DNA of 64,000 bases. Source: Flavobacterium taihuense. Lineage in GTDB: Bacteria > Bacteroidota > Bacteroidia > Flavobacteriales > Flavobacteriaceae. Within the stretch, counting starts at the first letter, position 1. Every line of letters begins with the position of its first letter. Below the pieces are notes generated by a model that did no database searches, was not told where the DNA came from, and was given only the letters and a program-made list of their open reading frames with translations. Positions 9,283 to 46,991 of the stretch are shown piece after piece. The translations under genes were made by a program, and so were the position numbers. The stretch spans positions 1 through 64,000 of the forward strand of contig NZ_JAHWYN010000006.1 of NCBI RefSeq assembly GCF_019351435.1, given 5' to 3'.

Positions 9283-10752
9283 TTATCCTATTTTCTTCAT
9301 TGCAGTCATTGATTCTCTCAACCAAGCACCAACTTCTTCAATTGGATGTTGACGAATACTTTTATTCACAGCGATAAGTACTGCATTGTCTACACCATTC
9401 GAAGTAGAAAAAGGTTTCCCGATAATATTGGTTTCAACCGTTTTCATGAATTCAGTCAATAATGGTTTACAAGCATGATCAAATAAATAACAACCGTACT
9501 CTGCTGTATCCGAAATAACACGGTTCATTTCAAACAATTTTTTTCTTGCAATTGTGTTTGCAATCAAAGGTAATTCGTGTAATGATTCATAATACGCTGA
9601 TTCTTCAATAATACCAGCTTCTGTCATCGTTTCAAAAGCCAATTCTACACCTGCTTTTACCATGGCAATCATTAAAACTCCATTATCAAAATATTCTTGC
9701 TCTGAAATTGCAGCAGTTGTTGGAGCCGTTTTTTCAAAATTAGTCTCTCCAGTTGCTGCTCTCCATGTTAATAAATTAACATCATCATTTGCCCAGTCAA
9801 TCATCATGTTTCTAGAAAACTCTCCAGACATAATATCATCCTGATGTTTTTGAAATAAAGGACGCATAATGTCTTTTAATTCATCTGCTAATTCATAAGC
9901 TTCAATTTTTGAAGGATTAGAAAGACGATCCATCATATTAGTGATTCCTCCATGTTTCAAAGCTTCCGTGATAGTTTCCCATCCGTATTGAATTAATTTT
10001 GAAGCATAACCCGATTCAATTCCTTTTTCAACCATTTTATCAAAACATAAAATAGATCCAGTTTGCAATAATCCACAAAGGATAGTTTGCTCACCCATTA
10101 AATCTGATTTTACTTCAGCTACAAATGAAGAACGTAAAACACCTGCTCTATTACCTCCAGTAGCAACTGCATACGCTTTTGCTTGCTCTAATCCTTCTCC
10201 ATTTGGATCATTTTCAGGGTGAACAGCGATAAGAGTTGGTACACCAAAACCTCTTTTGTATTCTTCACGTACTTCAGAGCCAGGACATTTTGGAGCGCAC
10301 ATAATAACAGTTAAGTCTTTACGAATTTGCATTCCTTCTTCAACGATATTAAATCCATGAGAATAAGCCAAAGTAGCTCCTTGTTTCATCAATGGCATAA
10401 TTGCAGTAACTACAGCGGTGTGTTGTTTATCTGGCGTAAGATTACAAACCAAATCAGCTGTTGGGATTAATTCTTCATAAGTTCCCACTTTGAAACCATT
10501 ATCAGTAGCATTTTTAAAAGAAGCTCTTTTTTCAGCGATAGCGTCAGCGCGTAAAGCATAAGAAATATCCAAACCTGAATCTCTCATGTTCAAACCTTGG
10601 TTCAAACCTTGAGCTCCACAACCTACAATGACTACTTTTTTTCCTGCCAATGCAGTTATTCCATTTGCAAATTCTGATTGATCCATGAATTCGCAAACTC
10701 CTAATTGTTCTAATTGTAATCTAAGTGGTAATGAATTGAAATAATTTGCCAT
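9283..10752 (-). CDS. ilvC: Ketol-acid reductoisomerase, class II
   Basis: This NADPH- and Mg-dependent enzyme converts acetolactate or acetohydroxybutyrate to the dihydroxy acid in Val/Ile/Leu synthesis. At 489 residues it is the long class II form, with a duplicated C-terminal KARI domain, as in E. coli and plants. The nucleotide-binding [10 protein letters not shown] motif and the [14 protein letters not shown] segment are visible. It is the last gene of ilvD-ilvB-ilvN-ilvC, 69 bases after ilvN. No ilvA follows in this window. Confidence 0.95.
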
Positions 10753-10821: not shown

Positions 10822-11340
10822 CTAAAGTGCTTCCAATAATGTTGATATTTCCATTTTTTCTTTCGAAATCGATATTCTTCCCGAACGAACAAACTGCATA
10901 ATTCCAAAAGGCTTAAGTTTTGCGTATAATTCTTCAATTTCAGAACGTTTACCTGATTTTGAAATCACAAAAAACTCTCTTGATACCGTAACAATTTCAG
11001 ATTTACTGTCTTTAATGATGTTCTGAATTTGTCTTTCGTCAAAAAGCAAGCTTGATTCAATTTTGAAAATTGCACTTTCCAAAAAGATAGTCTCTTCATC
11101 GATGTGGTAAAATGCTTTAATAACTTCAATTTGTTTTTCTATCTGGCCAACTATGTTTTGAACCCATTTTTCAGTGGTGTTTACAACAATTACAAATCGT
11201 GAAACATTTTCAATTTCAGATTCCGAAACATTTAGACTCAATATGTTGATGTGGCGTTTCAAGAATATACCTGATATTCTGTTTAATAAGCCAACGTTAT
11301 TTTCTGAATAAACAGAAATGGTGAACATTTTATTTTCCAT
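10822..11340 (-). CDS. ilvN: Acetolactate synthase small (regulatory) subunit
   Basis: This 172-residue protein has an N-terminal ACT domain (FTISVYSENNVGLLNRISGIF) and a second regulatory half. Small subunits of this type bind valine and activate and feedback-regulate the large subunit. It lies 52 bases after ilvB and before ilvC in the same operon. The start at residue M1 (MENKMF) is used; M5 is an alternative. Confidence 0.9.
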   Translation of the reverse strand: MENKMFTISVYSENNVGLLNRISGIFLKRHINILSLNVSESEIENVSRFVIVVNTTEKWVQNIVGQIEKQIEVIKAFYHIDEETIFLESAIFKIESSLLFDERQIQNIIKDSKSEIVTVSREFFVISKSGKRSEIEELYAKLKPFGIMQFVRSGRISISKEKMEISTLLEAL

Positions 11341-11392: not shown

Positions 11393-13090
11393 TTAATTCA
11401 ATCTTATATCTGAAACCGAAGCTCCTGTTGGTATCATCGGGAATACGTTATTCTCTTTCTCTACCATTACTTCCAGGAAGTAAGAATCTTTAGAAGCCAT
11501 CATTTCGGCAACGGCAGCATCTAGATCTTCACGTTTCGTTACTTTTTTTGATTTGATATAATACCCTTCAGCAATTGCAATAAAATTAGGGTTTATCATT
11601 TTCGTTGAAGCATATCTATTGTCGAAAAAAAGCTCCTGCCATTGACGTACCATTCCCAAAAATTCATTGTTCAATACCACTATTTTAACTGGAACTTGAG
11701 TTTGAAAAATAGTGCCCAATTCTTGAATTGTCATTTGAAAACCACCGTCACCAATAATAGCTACCACTTCTCTTTCTGGCATTCCCATTTTGGCACCAAT
11801 AGCAGCCGGCAAAGCAAATCCCATTGTTCCTAAACCTCCAGAAGTAATATTACTTTTGGATTTATTGAATTTAGAATAGCGACAAGTAAACATTTGGTGT
11901 TGTCCCACATCCGACACCATGATAGCATCACCATTAGAGTGTTTATTGATCATTTCTATAGTTTCTCCCATAGAAATTCCGCGATCGTTGGTTGGAGCTA
12001 ACTCTTCATTGATAACAGCTTCCAATTCGATTTTATACTTTTCTTTGAACTCGTTGTGCCATGATTCATGCGATTTTTTATCGATTAATGGAATCAAAGC
12101 GGTTAATGCTTCTTTAACATCTGCTAACACCGCAACTGTGGTTTTAACGTTTTTATCGACTTCGGCAGGATCAATTTCAAAGTGTATCACTTTGGCTTGC
12201 TTCGCATATGTTGCCAAATTTCCTGTCACACGGTCATCAAAACGCATTCCCAATGCAATCAATACGTCGCATTCATTCGTTAAGATGTTTGGACCATAGT
12301 TTCCATGCATTCCTAACATTCCAACATTCAACGGATGATCTGTCGGTAAAGCTGAAAGTCCTAAAATTGTCCAAGCAGCGGGAATACCTGATTTTTCAAC
12401 CAATTCTTTTAATTGCTCTTCGGCTTCGCCAAGAATAATTCCTTGACCAAAAACGATATAAGGCTTTTTGGCATTATTTATTAAATCCGCCGCTTCCTTT
12501 ACTTTTTCAAGATTTAAAGTTGGTTTCGGAGTATAACTTCTGATGCTGGTACATTTTTCATAACTAAAATCAAGTTCGTCAAATTGAGCATTTTTGGTAA
12601 TATCTATTAATACTGGCCCAGGACGTCCTGAGCGCGCTATAAAAAAAGCTTTTGCAATAATCTCAGGAATTTCACGTGCTTCAGTCACTTGATAGTTCCA
12701 TTTGGTAACTGGTGTCGATATTCCTATAATATCTGTTTCTTGAAAAGCGTCCGATCCCAATAAATGTTTTCCTACTTGACCAGTGATACATACTATAGGA
12801 GTGGAATCAATTTGAGCATCTGCTATCCCAGTGACCAAATTAGTGGCACCTGGTCCCGAAGTAGCTATTGCAACTCCAACTTTTCCTGTCGCTCTTGCAT
12901 ACCCTTGTGCGGCATGAGTAGCACCTTGTTCGTGACGAACCAAAACGTGATGCAATTGATCTTGAAATTTATATAATTCGTCATAAACAGGCATTATCGC
13001 TCCTCCGGGATAACCATAAACGAGGTCAACTCCTTCAGCCAATAAGCATCTGATAACGGCTTCTGCTCCTGATATTCTATTATTTTCCAT
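11393..13090 (-). CDS. ilvB: Acetolactate synthase large (catalytic) subunit
   Basis: This 565-residue thiamine-diphosphate enzyme condenses pyruvate with pyruvate or 2-oxobutyrate. The TPP-activating Glu lies in VRHEQGATHAAQGYARA, with SGPGATN after it. The TPP/Mg-binding GDGGFQMTIQELGT and NNEFLGMVRQWQ segments are intact. Length is typical. It is the second gene of the ilv operon, 80 bases after ilvD and before its regulatory subunit ilvN. Confidence 0.95.
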   Translation of the reverse strand: MENNRISGAEAVIRCLLAEGVDLVYGYPGGAIMPVYDELYKFQDQLHHVLVRHEQGATHAAQGYARATGKVGVAIATSGPGATNLVTGIADAQIDSTPIVCITGQVGKHLLGSDAFQETDIIGISTPVTKWNYQVTEAREIPEIIAKAFFIARSGRPGPVLIDITKNAQFDELDFSYEKCTSIRSYTPKPTLNLEKVKEAADLINNAKKPYIVFGQGIILGEAEEQLKELVEKSGIPAAWTILGLSALPTDHPLNVGMLGMHGNYGPNILTNECDVLIALGMRFDDRVTGNLATYAKQAKVIHFEIDPAEVDKNVKTTVAVLADVKEALTALIPLIDKKSHESWHNEFKEKYKIELEAVINEELAPTNDRGISMGETIEMINKHSNGDAIMVSDVGQHQMFTCRYSKFNKSKSNITSGGLGTMGFALPAAIGAKMGMPEREVVAIIGDGGFQMTIQELGTIFQTQVPVKIVVLNNEFLGMVRQWQELFFDNRYASTKMINPNFIAIAEGYYIKSKKVTKREDLDAAVAEMMASKDSYFLEVMVEKENNVFPMIPTGASVSDIRLN

Positions 13091-13170: not shown

Positions 13171-14844
13171 CTATTTATCGGTAACACATCCTGTCGATGC
13201 GCTTGACACAGATCTTGCGTATTTCAAAAGAACCCCTTTTGTTGCTTTTAAAGGCGGTTGTACCCAATTGGCACGTCTTCTTGCAAATTCTTCTTCACTT
13301 ATTTTCAAGTTTATGGTATTTTTTACAGCATCAATAGCGATTAAATCACCATCCTTAACTAATGCAATACCTCCACCATCATATGCCTCTGGTGTTATGT
13401 GACCGACCACAAATCCATGTGAACCTCCAGAGAATCTACCATCAGTAATCAAAGCAACACTGCTTCCTAATCCAGCTCCCATAATGGCGGATGTTGGCTT
13501 TAGCATTTCAGGCATCCCTGGACCACCTTTTGGCCCACAATATCTTATGACGACTACATCGCCTGGTTTTACCTTCCCATTTTGAATACCTGGAATAACC
13601 GTAAATTCACTCTCAAAAACAACTGCAGTACCTTCAAAATATTCTCCTTCTTTTCCGCTTATTTTAGCAACGCAACCTTCTGATGCCAAGTTCCCGTATA
13701 ATATTTGGATGTTTCCTGTCGATTTTAAAGCTTTTTGAATCTCAAAAATAACTTCTTGACCATCTTGTAAATCAGGAATACTTGCTAAATTTTCAGCTAC
13801 TGTTTTCCCCGTTACTGTCAAACAATCACCGTGAATAAATCCTTCTTTCAATAAATATTTCATTACTGCAGGAATACCTCCAACAGCATGTAAATCTTCC
13901 ATCATGTATTTTCCGCTTGGCTTCAAATCTGCAAGTACCGGTGTTTTATCACTGATTGCTTGAAAATCTGCTAAAGTAATTTCGATATCTACCGAATGTG
14001 CCATAGCTATTAAGTGCATTACCGCATTTGTTGAACCTCCCAAAACAGCAACAATGGTGATTGCGTTTTCAAAAGCTTTACGAGTCATAATGTCCCTAGG
14101 CTTAATATCTTTCTCCAACAATATTCTGATAGCTTTTCCCGCATCAAGACATTCTTGTTTTTTTTCATCGCTTAAAGCTGGATTTGACGAACTGTATGGC
14201 AAACTCATCCCTAAAGCTTCAATAGCAGAAGACATAGTATTAGCAGTGTACATACCACCACAAGCCCCAGGACCAGGACAAGAATTTTGAATCACTCCTT
14301 TAAAGTCTTCATCAGAAATTGTGTTTTGGAACTTTTTGCCTAATGCTTCAAAAGCCGAAACGATATTGAGACTTTCGCCTTTCCATTTTCCAGAATGAAT
14401 CGTACCACCGTAAACCATAAGAGCTGGGCGATTTACTCTTCCCATAGCAATTAAGGCACCCGGCATATTTTTATCACAACCCGGAATAGCAATCAAACTA
14501 TCATACCATTGCGCTCCCATAACCGTTTCAATAGAATCGGCAATTACATCACGGGAAACCAATGAAAAACGCATACCGTCAGTACCGTTTGAAATTCCAT
14601 CACTAACACCAATAGTATTAAATATCAGCCCAACAAGATCGGCATCCCAGACACCTTGCTTGACATCTTTGGCTAGATCGTTCAAGTGCATATTACAAGT
14701 ATTTCCTTCATACCCCATACTTACAATACCAACCTGAGCTTTTTTTAGATCTTCCTCTGTCAAACCAATTCCGTACAACATCGCTTGTGCTGCTGGTTGT
14801 GTAACATCTTGTGTAATCGTCTTGCTGTATTTATTTAATTCCAT
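13171..14844 (-). CDS. ilvD: Dihydroxy-acid dehydratase
   Basis: This 557-residue iron-sulfur enzyme forms the 2-oxo acid precursors of valine and isoleucine. Cluster cysteines are visible in PGCDKNMPG and in [16 protein letters not shown]. It is the first structural gene after the ilv leader/attenuator: a terminator hairpin ends about 34 bases before its start codon, so its expression should depend on readthrough. Confidence 0.95.
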
Positions 14845-14877: not shown

Positions 14878-14910
14878 AAAAAAAAACCTCCCAAAATTAT
14901 GGGAGGTTTT
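14878..14910 (-). terminator. ilv attenuator terminator hairpin
   Basis: On the minus strand AAAACCTCCC pairs with GGGAGGTTTT around an 8-base loop and runs into a T-tract. It begins 20 bases after the stop of a branched-chain-rich leader peptide and precedes ilvD. An alternative pairing exists: GGGATTGG (14936-14943), in the tail of the leader ORF, can pair with CCTCCC of the terminator with a 2-base bulge. It would act as an antiterminator when a ribosome stalls upstream. Confidence 0.85.
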
Positions 14911-14930
14911 AAATATGTTTTCACTTATAT

Positions 14931-15005
14931 TTATACCAATCCCTTTTCATATGTGATAATCACAATGACACTTAGAACTACAAGGATGTTGGTAATGCGT
15001 TTCAT
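14931..15005 (-). CDS. ilv operon leader peptide
   Basis: This 24-codon ORF reads MKRITNILVV, then LSVIVIITYE and KGLV. Thirteen residues are Ile, Leu or Val, with nine in the 11-residue run 7-17. It starts about 20 bases after a TACTTTTG promoter element, ends 20 bases before an intrinsic terminator and precedes ilvD. This is the layout of a ribosome-mediated transcription attenuator: shortage of charged Ile/Leu/Val tRNA stalls translation and allows readthrough into ilvDBNC. The function is inferred from architecture. Confidence 0.85.
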   Translation of the reverse strand: MKRITNILVVLSVIVIITYEKGLV

Positions 15006-15024
15006 TTTTTTATTTTTAACTCTG

Positions 15025-15032
15025 CAAAAGTA
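15025..15032 (-). promoter_or_regulatory. Promoter -7 element of the ilv leader
   Basis: TACTTTTG matches the flavobacterial -7 pattern. No TTG lies at the ideal distance upstream (nearest spacing 13), so the -33 element is weak or absent. It places the transcript start shortly before the leader peptide ATG and after leuB, giving ilvDBNC its own attenuated promoter. Confidence 0.6.
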
Positions 15033-17435: not shown

Positions 17436-17485
17436 TTTAATATATTTAATGTAATTTCACATCTTAAAACAAAAATAGTTTTCAT
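17432..17485 (-). CDS. Possible 17-codon leader ORF before leuA
   Basis: A frame encoding [10 protein letters not shown] and ITLNILK ends with a TGA that overlaps the leuA ATG (ATGA). Seven of 17 residues are Ile, Leu or Val. A promoter-like TATTTTTG lies inside the frame, which would argue against it, and no terminator hairpin is present. Such a frame can arise by chance in AT-rich DNA. Confidence 0.25.
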
Positions 17486-17589
17486 TTACTTAGAACTAAA
17501 CCTGCTTTTAAATAAATATACTACTTATAAAGTAAAAAATAACAGCATAAATATCTATAAATCAATATATTAAATACTTTTATAATACA

Positions 17590-19134
17590 ATGGCTAACCA
17601 TCAAAAAGATTTTTTATTTGTATTAATAAAATCCCTTTCCAAATCTGAAAAAAGACAATTTAAGATATTTGCAAGTCGATTAGAGACGAGTTCTAATACC
17701 AAGTTTATCGAGTTATTTAATATTTTGGATAAATCCGAAGTATATGATGAAAAACTAATATTAAAGAATGGCTTAATTAAAAAAGTACAATTATCGAATC
17801 TTAAATCATACTTGTATAAACAGATTCTGGTGAGTATTCGCTTGAATATTCCGAGTCAGAACATTCGATATCAATTGAGGGAACAAATTGACTTTGCCGC
17901 AATCCTTTATAATAAAGGGCTTTACAAACAAAGTTTAAAAATATTGGATAAAACAAAACAACAAGCCATCGAAAATGATGAGAAATACATGGCATTTGAA
18001 ATTGTTGAATTTGAAAAACTAATTGAGTCACAATACATCACCAGAAGTATTCAAGGACGGGCTGATGAACTAGTCATTCAAGCCAAAGAATTGAATTATC
18101 GCAATACCATTTCGAGCAAATTATCTAATTTATCGCTTCAATTGTATGGTATCATGCTGAAAACCGGATTTGTAAAAAGCGATGAGGAATACAAATACAT
18201 TGATGATTATTTTAATAAACACATTGCTCATTTAGATCAATCCAAATTTGAGTTTAGAGAGAAATATTGGTTTTATAATGCCAATTTGTGGCGAAGCTTC
18301 TTGGTACAAGACTTTCTTTCGTGTTATAAATATGCTTATAAATGGGTAAACTTATTTTATGACAATAAAAATATGATTTTCTTAAATCCTGTTTTCTTCC
18401 TAAAAGGAAATCATTATTTATTAGAGTCATTATTCATGCTCAAATACAAATCGAATTTCAAAAAGTATTTAGAATTGTTGGAAGAAACGATTAATGATCC
18501 CCGTTTTCCGGTAAACGACAATATTGCTTCACTGTCATTCCTTTATTTGTATAACAATAAATTGAACTATCATATACTAGAAGGCACTTTTGCGGAAAGC
18601 GAATATTTGGTACCAGTTATTTTGAATAAAATGAAAATTCACAGTGAGCACTTAGATGAGCACCACGAAATGATGTTCTATTACAAAATTGCCTGTATTT
18701 ATTTTGGGAATGAGAAGTATCAAGAGTGTATTGTTTATTTAGAAAAAATCATCAACAACAAGAATCTCACCATGCGTGAAGATTTAATGTGTTTTGCGAG
18801 AATTTTATGTTTGATTGCACATTATGAACTAGGCAAAGATTACTATCTTGAAAACCAACTTAAAAATACATACAAGTTTTTACTTAAGATGAATGATCTT
18901 CACGAGGTACAAAAAGAGATTATTCGTTTCCTTAAAAACTTAAGTAATTTGTATCCTAGTGATATTAAGAAAGAGTTCATCAAAATGAGAGAACGCTTTA
19001 TTGAATTAGAGAAAAACACATATGAAAAAAGGGCTTTTCTATATCTTGATATCATTTCTTGGCTAGAAAGTAAAATTGAGAATCGAAAAATAAGTGATAT
19101 TATTAAAGAAAAAGCAAAGTTGATTAATAGGTAA
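17590..19134 (+). CDS. TPR-like hypothetical protein
   Basis: I recognise no named family. This 514-residue protein is soluble, charged and almost entirely helical, with helix pairs resembling tetratricopeptide repeats, for example ILYNKGLYKQSLKILDKTKQ near residues 117-136 and YFGNEKYQECIVYLEKI near 376-392. It lacks a signal peptide and membrane segments. The N-terminal LIKSLSKSEKRQFKIFASR block looks conserved in similar Bacteroidota proteins. It is divergent from leuA, sharing a 154-base promoter region. Confidence 0.7.
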   Translation: MANHQKDFLFVLIKSLSKSEKRQFKIFASRLETSSNTKFIELFNILDKSEVYDEKLILKNGLIKKVQLSNLKSYLYKQILVSIRLNIPSQNIRYQLREQIDFAAILYNKGLYKQSLKILDKTKQQAIENDEKYMAFEIVEFEKLIESQYITRSIQGRADELVIQAKELNYRNTISSKLSNLSLQLYGIMLKTGFVKSDEEYKYIDDYFNKHIAHLDQSKFEFREKYWFYNANLWRSFLVQDFLSCYKYAYKWVNLFYDNKNMIFLNPVFFLKGNHYLLESLFMLKYKSNFKKYLELLEETINDPRFPVNDNIASLSFLYLYNNKLNYHILEGTFAESEYLVPVILNKMKIHSEHLDEHHEMMFYYKIACIYFGNEKYQECIVYLEKIINNKNLTMREDLMCFARILCLIAHYELGKDYYLENQLKNTYKFLLKMNDLHEVQKEIIRFLKNLSNLYPSDIKKEFIKMRERFIELEKNTYEKRAFLYLDIISWLESKIENRKISDIIKEKAKLINR

Positions 19135-41356: not shown

Positions 41357-41434
41357 GGAGCTATTCCTGCTATCCGTTACAATCTTTTGTGTTTGAAAAA
41401 AAACACAAAAGGATTTTCACTGCTATCAGGGCTA
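41357..41434 (-). repeat. Palindromic intergenic repeat, copy 2
   Basis: Read on the minus strand it begins TAGCCCTGATAGCAGTGAAA, has an AATCCTTTTGTGTTT / AAACACAAAAGATT hairpin, and ends AACGGATAGCAGGAATAGCTCC. It is the same family as the copies at 331-410 and 46837-46937. It sits between fabG and an EamA transporter. Confidence 0.75.
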
Positions 41435-41510
41435 GTTTACAAAGGTCAAATATAATAATAAAATACGGATACAAAAAAATTACAAATTCAATTGCATTTT
41501 TACCTCTGGT

Positions 41511-46836: not shown

Positions 46837-46937
46837 TCAGGAGCGAATCAATAGGCTTTATCAAGAAACATCGTTCCTTCTGTCCGCTATATTCTATCCC
46901 GTAAAAACGGGATAGAATGGCACTCCCATCAGGGCTA
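46837..46937 (-). repeat. Palindromic intergenic repeat, copy 3
   Basis: On the minus strand it begins TAGCCCTGATGGGAGTG, has a perfect ATTCTATCCCG / CGGGATAGAAT hairpin and ends ATAGCGGACAGAAGGAAC. A GCTCCTGA block follows about 30 bases later, so this copy appears to carry extra sequence between its last two conserved blocks. Confidence 0.75.
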
Positions 46938-46991
46938 AAGAGCGGTCATTGGGATTTTTTGGAGAATAACTCCAACAAAACTATAATCCAT

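Follow-up and report, generated by a model that had tools for sequence, protein, structure and literature searches.

The genes ilvDBNC of Flavobacterium taihuense follow a short open reading frame rich in Ile, Leu and Val codons and a terminator-like hairpin, which raises the question of whether this operon is controlled by attenuation of its own transcription. The locus lies in a window of 64,000 nucleotides, the whole stretch of DNA that was analysed (positions 1 to 64,000 of contig NZ_JAHWYN010000006.1, assembly GCF_019351435.1). In our assessment, the leader is very probably a classical ribosome-mediated transcription attenuator, with a switch that is a computed one. The putative parts of the attenuator, their conservation and the covariation of the terminator and the inner hairpin were derived from sequence and comparison, while translation of the leader, pausing and regulation by Ile, Leu and Val are what we infer.

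The features of the locus are collected in Table 1. The initial annotation had described a leader of 24 codons with 13 Ile/Leu/Val codons, preceded by a promoter element and followed 20 bases later by an intrinsic terminator and then ilvD. The leader was confirmed on the minus strand, the terminator and its place before ilvD were confirmed from sequence and fold, and the promoter element was matched by its motif. The number of Ile/Leu/Val codons given for residues 7-17, nine, had to be corrected to ten. The promoter of the ilv leader was assigned by motif only; the consensus TAnnTTTG and its spacing of 4-5 nt to the transcription start are described in the available text of two papers (PMC9723704, PMC6847099). 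Of 13 aligned loci, 12 have the motif in this position, and L006 has TACTTTTA instead. The leader ORF has an A-rich start context and no Shine-Dalgarno sequence was seen. The genes after the terminator, in the order ilvD-ilvB-ilvN-ilvC with fitting Pfam domains, are cognate amino-acid synthesis genes. No leucine leader was seen by eye ahead of leuA (17436-17620). The window also holds three matches to the Flavo-1 RNA (RF01705), whose function is unknown, at 328-405 on the plus strand and at 41359-41437 and 46869-46940 on the minus strand.

Table 1 Features of the ilv leader and operon in the Flavobacterium taihuense window
Feature	Position	Strand	Remarks
-7 promoter element TACTTTTG	15025..15032	-	fits TAnnTTTG; start expected about 4-5 nt downstream, near 15020
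Leader ORF MKRITNILVVLSVIVIITYEKGLV with stop codon	14931..15005	-	24 codons, 13 of them Ile/Leu/Val
Possible protector ACCAACATCCTT	14982..14993	-	can pair with AAGGGATTGGT (minimum-energy fold of whole leader)
Hairpin UGUG-AUUAU-CACA inside leader coding region	14952..14964	-	aligned leaders, paired columns
Antiterminator 5' segment GGGATTGG in last leader codons	14936..14943	-	truncated-RNA fold
Inner AU helix TATAAATATAA...TATTTA closing the antiterminator hairpin	14911..14935	-	truncated-RNA fold; conserved columns
Intrinsic terminator AAAACCTCCCA-TAATTT-TGGGAGGTTTT	14883..14910	-	-16.7 kcal/mol; starts 20 nt after leader stop
T run after terminator	14878..14886	-	sequence
ilvD, dihydroxy-acid dehydratase	13171..14844	-	Pfam PF00920, PF24877; ATG at 14844
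ilvB, acetolactate synthase large subunit	11393..13090	-	Pfam TPP enzyme domains; adjoins ilvN; exact name from context
ilvN, acetolactate synthase small subunit	10822..11340	-	Pfam PF10369, PF22629
ilvC, ketol-acid reductoisomerase	9283..10752	-	Pfam PF07991, PF01450

The predicted switch was calculated by folding the RNA for each position of the ribosome. The front edge of the ribosome was set 13 nt past the first base of the A-site codon, the free RNA up to the end of the terminator 5' arm was folded, and the score was how often the last eight bases of the arm pair with anything upstream, which is a thermodynamic and not a kinetic measure. In the window, the antiterminator probability stayed at 0.84-0.85 as long as the A site held any of codons 2-17, dropped to 0.36 for codons 18-19 and was 0.00-0.02 from codon 20 onward, with 0.00 at the stop codon itself. 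The proposal that a stalled ribosome leaves GGGATTGG free was thus upheld by computation, and the switch point fell just past the last control codons. The score for all 13 Ile/Leu/Val codons exceeded that for the stop codon by 0.72, compared with 0.16 on average in shuffled sequences (p=0.013). The mean over 42 aligned leaders was 0.01 at the stop codon and, when codons near the element are disregarded, 0.75 at Ile/Leu/Val codons; both values were calculated without shuffles. All but one of these leaders, the window's included, were predicted to switch (41/42; at least 0.5 at the control codons and at most 0.2 at the stop), and the value for L101 was 0.49. In RNA free of ribosomes, the antiterminator probability was below 0.3 in 32 of the 42 leaders and 0.77-0.81 in the window. 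Since the ribosome-free RNA of the window is predicted to antiterminate, the textbook protector should be weak here. Because these values differ among leaders, loss of the start codon is predicted to have different effects from one species to another, with readthrough for this leader and termination for most of its relatives.

The alignment used for these comparisons contained 42 leaders, namely the window's, 34 of 40 distinct named ones and seven from the genus search, with two rows (L018 and L124) being one identical leader. The terminator helix was paired in 94.2% of cells, and one of its pairs was C-G in 20 sequences and U-A in 19, while another changed from C-G to A-U. The UGUG/CACA helix was paired in 96.7% of cells and 17 cells were changed on both sides, compared with 4.0 in shuffles; none of 500 shuffles reached its percentage paired, its number of double-change cells or its covariation score. 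The other two of the five covariation measures, the number of pairs with double changes and the number of pair types, stood out less and were as high in 27 and 77 of 500 shuffles, respectively, and in 94 and 174 of 500 when the terminator was added. Since the shuffles keep relatedness, the covariation of the terminator and the inner hairpin is to be taken as support and not as proof.

The antiterminator hairpin consists of GGGA-bulge-GG paired with CCTCCC, or GGAA-bulge-GG paired with CCTTCC, and is closed by the inner AU helix. With RNA that stops right after the terminator 5' arm, it was the minimum-energy fold in 42 of 42 leaders, L161 being the weakest. In the window, CCTCCC (14906-14901) is common to terminator and antiterminator, and GGGATTGG pairs with it in RNA cut before the terminator 3' arm. 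The antiterminator proposed earlier between these two segments forms in the truncated RNA, but as a bare duplex of GGGATTGG with the terminator arm it was no better than shuffles (p=0.14). Covariation, which had been looked for in both pairings, could be shown for the terminator but not for the antiterminator, where 494 of 5000 permutations of partners across the 42 leaders were as good as the real combination. That matched segments were not significantly better is probably due to the ability of GGGAA to pair with both types of arm.

Whether such an arrangement could occur by chance was estimated by scanning both strands of the window for ATG ORFs of 12-40 codons with a terminator within 60 nt. 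The scan gave 12 rows, with alternative starts counted apart, and only the ilv leader had an Ile/Leu/Val share of at least 50%. In twenty Markov-resampled windows taken together there were two such cases, so about 0.1 chance cases are expected per window. As a feature of the sequence the leader is real, and its conservation takes away the remaining doubt of chance. The IlvD N-terminus was matched in 36 of 61 genus genomes; the best 30 loci were fetched and one was cut at a contig end. An Ile/Leu/Val-rich ORF with a terminator was found directly before ilvD in 21 of the 29 evaluable loci, the window's included, and was absent from this place in eight. Among 80 named loci, two of which had too little upstream sequence, the leader was directly before ilvD in 49 of 78 evaluable ones and absent from there in 29: in eight it was about 1.0-1.3 kb upstream, ahead of a class IV aminotransferase-like gene (Pfam on L158), and in 21 no leader was found in the upstream stretch examined. 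These 49 loci belong to Flavobacterium, three 'Flavobacteriaceae bacterium' records and two Myroides; the nearest named IlvD matches are from Flavobacterium, with up to 98% identity over the first 172 residues. In Myroides pelagicus, a divergent gene of 1408 aa (L162:1925-6148, minus strand) that lies about 640 nt from the ilv leader carries RuvC_III and HNH_4 domains and is Cas9-like.

Beyond the genus, a covariance model (R1) was built from the 21 genus leaders; at E<=0.001 it hit 81 of 299 family genomes, among them the own genome and one other genus genome. Twenty-nine of its loci were fetched (L041-L069; L041 is the same place as L021), and 28 of them have an Ile/Leu/Val-rich ORF and a terminator, for example MKKQILNIVSIIVIVIISQD. 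The remaining locus (L056) has a Phe/Tyr leader, MNHAFNWNAFYFFYFYFRDRNGNAM, before a gene that was named pheA-like by eye. A wider search of the class found IlvD in 39 of 149 genomes, at 46 places, of which 29 were fetched (the own genome, G059 and 15 places of at most 37% identity were left out). The leader is present in the one fetched place that belongs to a genus member; among the 28 others, seven have an Ile/Leu/Val-rich ORF with a terminator, five of which (L215, L216, L218, L220 and L221) were judged convincing. ORF, terminator and antiterminator potential thus recur in Flavobacterium and beyond, as the alignment suggested in the initial annotation was meant to reveal. For the peptide itself, synonymous changes gave no sign of conservation. 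In a crude test that lumps sequence pairs, 26 distinct 24-residue leaders were compared with one another, and 181 codon differences were synonymous and 1574 non-synonymous. At Ile/Leu/Val codons, 358 non-synonymous differences remain in this class of codons and 296 leave it.

Comparable leaders were found before other amino-acid operons of the same genome, in a survey limited to operons chosen as classical targets or from the R1 search. A leader ORF and a terminator are present upstream of hisG (MLSIQLHHHHSHNCSQAMC), of pheA (MSNNRFYFSNSFYFFFRK) and of a gene regarded as trpE (MKTITNNTWWWNNLRQSS), which is among three chorismate-binding genes; L189, L190 and L192 make up this His, Phe/Tyr and Trp set. 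The ilvA operon has tandem Ile/Val leaders, MKNLISIIVVIIIIIIR and MKNLVAIISIVIIIIRFT, with terminators (L194, G000:C23:336000-341500), followed by a gene of 146 aa, which had no Pfam match at E 1e-5, and then by ilvA (threonine dehydratase). Each of two metY-like genes is preceded by a pair of leaders, and the first ORF of the second pair has only four Met/Cys codons. Before one of two thrA-like genes there is a Thr-rich ORF, MKNFSSTYHPSITTQIWVALAVTTTSTTTTTP (L187:1793-1891), with a promoter-like TACTTTTG box and a CCCCTTAGGGG hairpin across the stop codon of the ORF. A clear terminator was not seen at this locus, and an attenuator-type leader perhaps precedes thrA as well. Ten leaders of the genome, that of ilvD among them, have terminators; the difference between stalled and released states had p values of 0.003 to 0.07 each, and combined they gave a Fisher p=2e-9, in which the leaders were treated as independent although some are probably related. 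Seven of the nine besides the ilvD leader serve other amino acids. With bare duplexes, six of the ten reached p<0.05. Two overlapping Thr_leader matches on opposite strands of this genome, below the cut-off, were rejected; they surround a terminator-like hairpin after a long ORF.

Other explanations of the ilv locus have to be weighed against these results. The hairpin could merely be the 3' terminator of an upstream leuA-leuB transcript, with the ORF incidental. It is true that leuB is the co-directional upstream gene in the window and that, in 47 of the 49 named loci with a near leader, the closest gene end upstream is a leuB-like C-terminus. This explanation is nevertheless highly improbable, since the promoter box and the ORF sit between leuB and the hairpin and the composition and position of the leader ORF are conserved. 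Furthermore, the upstream neighbour was divergent in 16 of 21 family R1 loci examined, and the leader and terminator still stood before the ilv genes; there the terminator cannot belong to that neighbour. The divergent neighbour has the same N-terminus in 15 of the 21 loci (among L042-L068), and in L044, the one of the 15 that was tested, it is S-adenosylmethionine synthetase by Pfam.

Attenuation could also use the same antiterminator with a different sensor, such as a riboswitch, a T-box or an RNA-binding protein, and the conservation of the inner hairpin as a structure, beyond codons, would fit such a sensor. We give this very little weight: no Rfam family reached its gathering threshold on the ilv leader (the best was Phe_leader, with 27.8 bits against 55), the switch point lies right after the last control codons, and codon content tracks the pathway in ten leaders of one genome. 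Since a translated small peptide is expected, it might instead be the peptide itself that acts, by nascent-chain arrest or in trans, and not codon-specific stalling; the leader peptide peTrpL is reported to act in trans in the available text of PMC7298713. Action of the peptide seems most unlikely here, because the peptides keep their richness in Ile/Leu/Val although they differ in residues and in length (20-29 aa across the 42 aligned leaders). Classical attenuation by a ribosome that stalls at particular codons thus remains the preferred reading.

A further group of leaders precedes metY-like genes, which have the Pfam domain Cys_Met_Meta_PP and which we take to be metY. By rule, a Met/Cys-rich ORF and a terminator were found before metY in 27 of 30 genus loci (L070-L099). 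Of the remaining three, L071 has a pair of leaders, and by eye one leader each was seen at L098 (weak, three Met/Cys) and L099. In the own genome, such a locus is L188 (G000:C8). There are two types, which occur together in 11 of the 30 loci. The first has a MCNMCCMMW-like peptide and a CCTCTGC terminator; the second has a MMCCMM..CQK-like peptide, whose last codons (GCCAAAAG) are complementary to CTTTTGG, and a CCCTTTTGG terminator. A model built for this second type (R2) matched 31 of 249 family genomes at E<=0.001, the own genome and one genus genome counted. Among 24 of its loci that were inspected, six from other genera (L226, L228, L229, L230, L231 and L238) have a Met/Cys-rich ORF and a terminator before a metY-like gene, three of them with both types, and 12 of the 13 loci with E above 1e-5 look unrelated. 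A SAM-II riboswitch match was found on the strand opposite metY, not far from the Met/Cys leaders, in five of ten loci scanned (L070, L072, L084, L096 and L097). Two R1 matches, L035 and L036, were rejected as ilv leaders: they overlap on opposite strands around one terminator, the first in the pair of leaders ahead of the second metY-like gene. The Met/Cys leaders in tandem are possibly a new variant.

From these data the following course of events is proposed for the ilv operon. Transcription would begin near 15020 and a ribosome would start on the leader ORF, where the UGUG/CACA hairpin, possibly an RNA polymerase pause or a 1:2-type hairpin, may hold RNA polymerase so that the ribosome catches up. 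When too little tRNA is charged with Ile, Val or Leu, the ribosome would stall in control codons 7-17 and free the region from GGGATTGG onward, which could then form the long antiterminator hairpin with CCTCCC. As this hairpin would fold before the terminator 3' arm is made, RNA polymerase would read into ilvD. When the tRNAs are charged, the ribosome would reach the stop codon and cover GGGATTGG, CCTCCC would pair with GGGAGG, and transcription would end in the T run. Synthesis of Ile, Leu and Val thus appears to be turned on only in a shortage of these amino acids. In the literature searched, we found neither mapped transcript ends for the ilv leader nor a measured response to Ile, Leu and Val.

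It is moderately probable that ribosome-mediated attenuators control much of the amino-acid biosynthesis of Flavobacteriaceae, whose phylum lacks Shine-Dalgarno sequences, and that they include tandem ones before ilvA and metY and a dual-codon Met/Cys class before metY that extends to at least six other genera. If this is true, transcription and translation would be coupled closely enough in Bacteroidota for control at the level of codons. The ilv leader makes the coupling of ribosome and RNA polymerase in this phylum testable in a tractable laboratory species (for F. johnsoniae, ribo-seq and RNA-seq have been published, PMC6847099), and also the use of one mechanism with varied codons for the branched-chain, His, Trp, Phe, Met/Cys and perhaps Thr pathways. 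The tandem Met/Cys leaders would be a sensor of sulfur amino acids, of which no description was found in the literature searched.

The well-known leaders of ilvGMEDA and ilvBN in Escherichia coli have a short ORF rich in Ile, Leu and Val, a terminator, an alternative antiterminator and a branched-chain operon downstream. The Flavobacterium leader is like them in its ORF, its terminator, its downstream operon and its predicted alternative antiterminator, and differs in that this antiterminator is AU-rich with an inner helix, in the lack of a Shine-Dalgarno sequence and in having ilvD as the first gene. A comparative study of attenuation from 2004 reportedly names Bacteroidetes/Chlorobi in its abstract among the groups with candidate attenuators. 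A 2010 paper added Firmicutes and stated in its available text that, apart from one atypical case, the leader peptides known up to that time came only from Proteobacteria and Actinobacteria (PMC2965389). In flavobacteria, leader-peptide attenuation has been pointed to before: the 2021 transcriptome of F. psychrophilum gave strong clues for it before amino-acid biosynthesis operons, with structured 5' elements before pheA and hisG that are conserved in the family and have no Rfam hits (PMC9723704). That species bears the same genus name, but ilv does not occur in the main text of that paper and a stall/release model is absent from the part of its text that was available. In Bacteroides thetaiotaomicron, of the same phylum, short ORFs in long 5' UTRs have been described as reminiscent of attenuating leader peptides (PMC7366714); the example in the available text is a hypothetical gene, with neither an amino-acid operon nor codon content given.

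Further parallels come from other bacteria. The ilvB-II motif of Corynebacterium, the ilvB-OMG motif and the ilvB motif of Leptospira have an upstream ORF rich in branched-chain codons before ilv genes (PMC10272879), and ilvB-II, like the Flavobacterium leader, has a terminator. By their description these motifs differ in standing before ilvB and in their hosts, which are Corynebacterium, Leptospira and, for ilvB-OMG, various phyla; the available text of that paper does not contain 'Bacteroid-'. For the Met/Cys leaders, the nearest printed parallel found is the uORFC-8-2 motif before cysS of Rhodobacterales, in which Cys codons lie in an attenuator ORF (PMC8632094). As described in the text at hand, that motif has two Cys codons and serves cysS, whereas the metY leaders mix Met and Cys codons and are often arranged in tandem.
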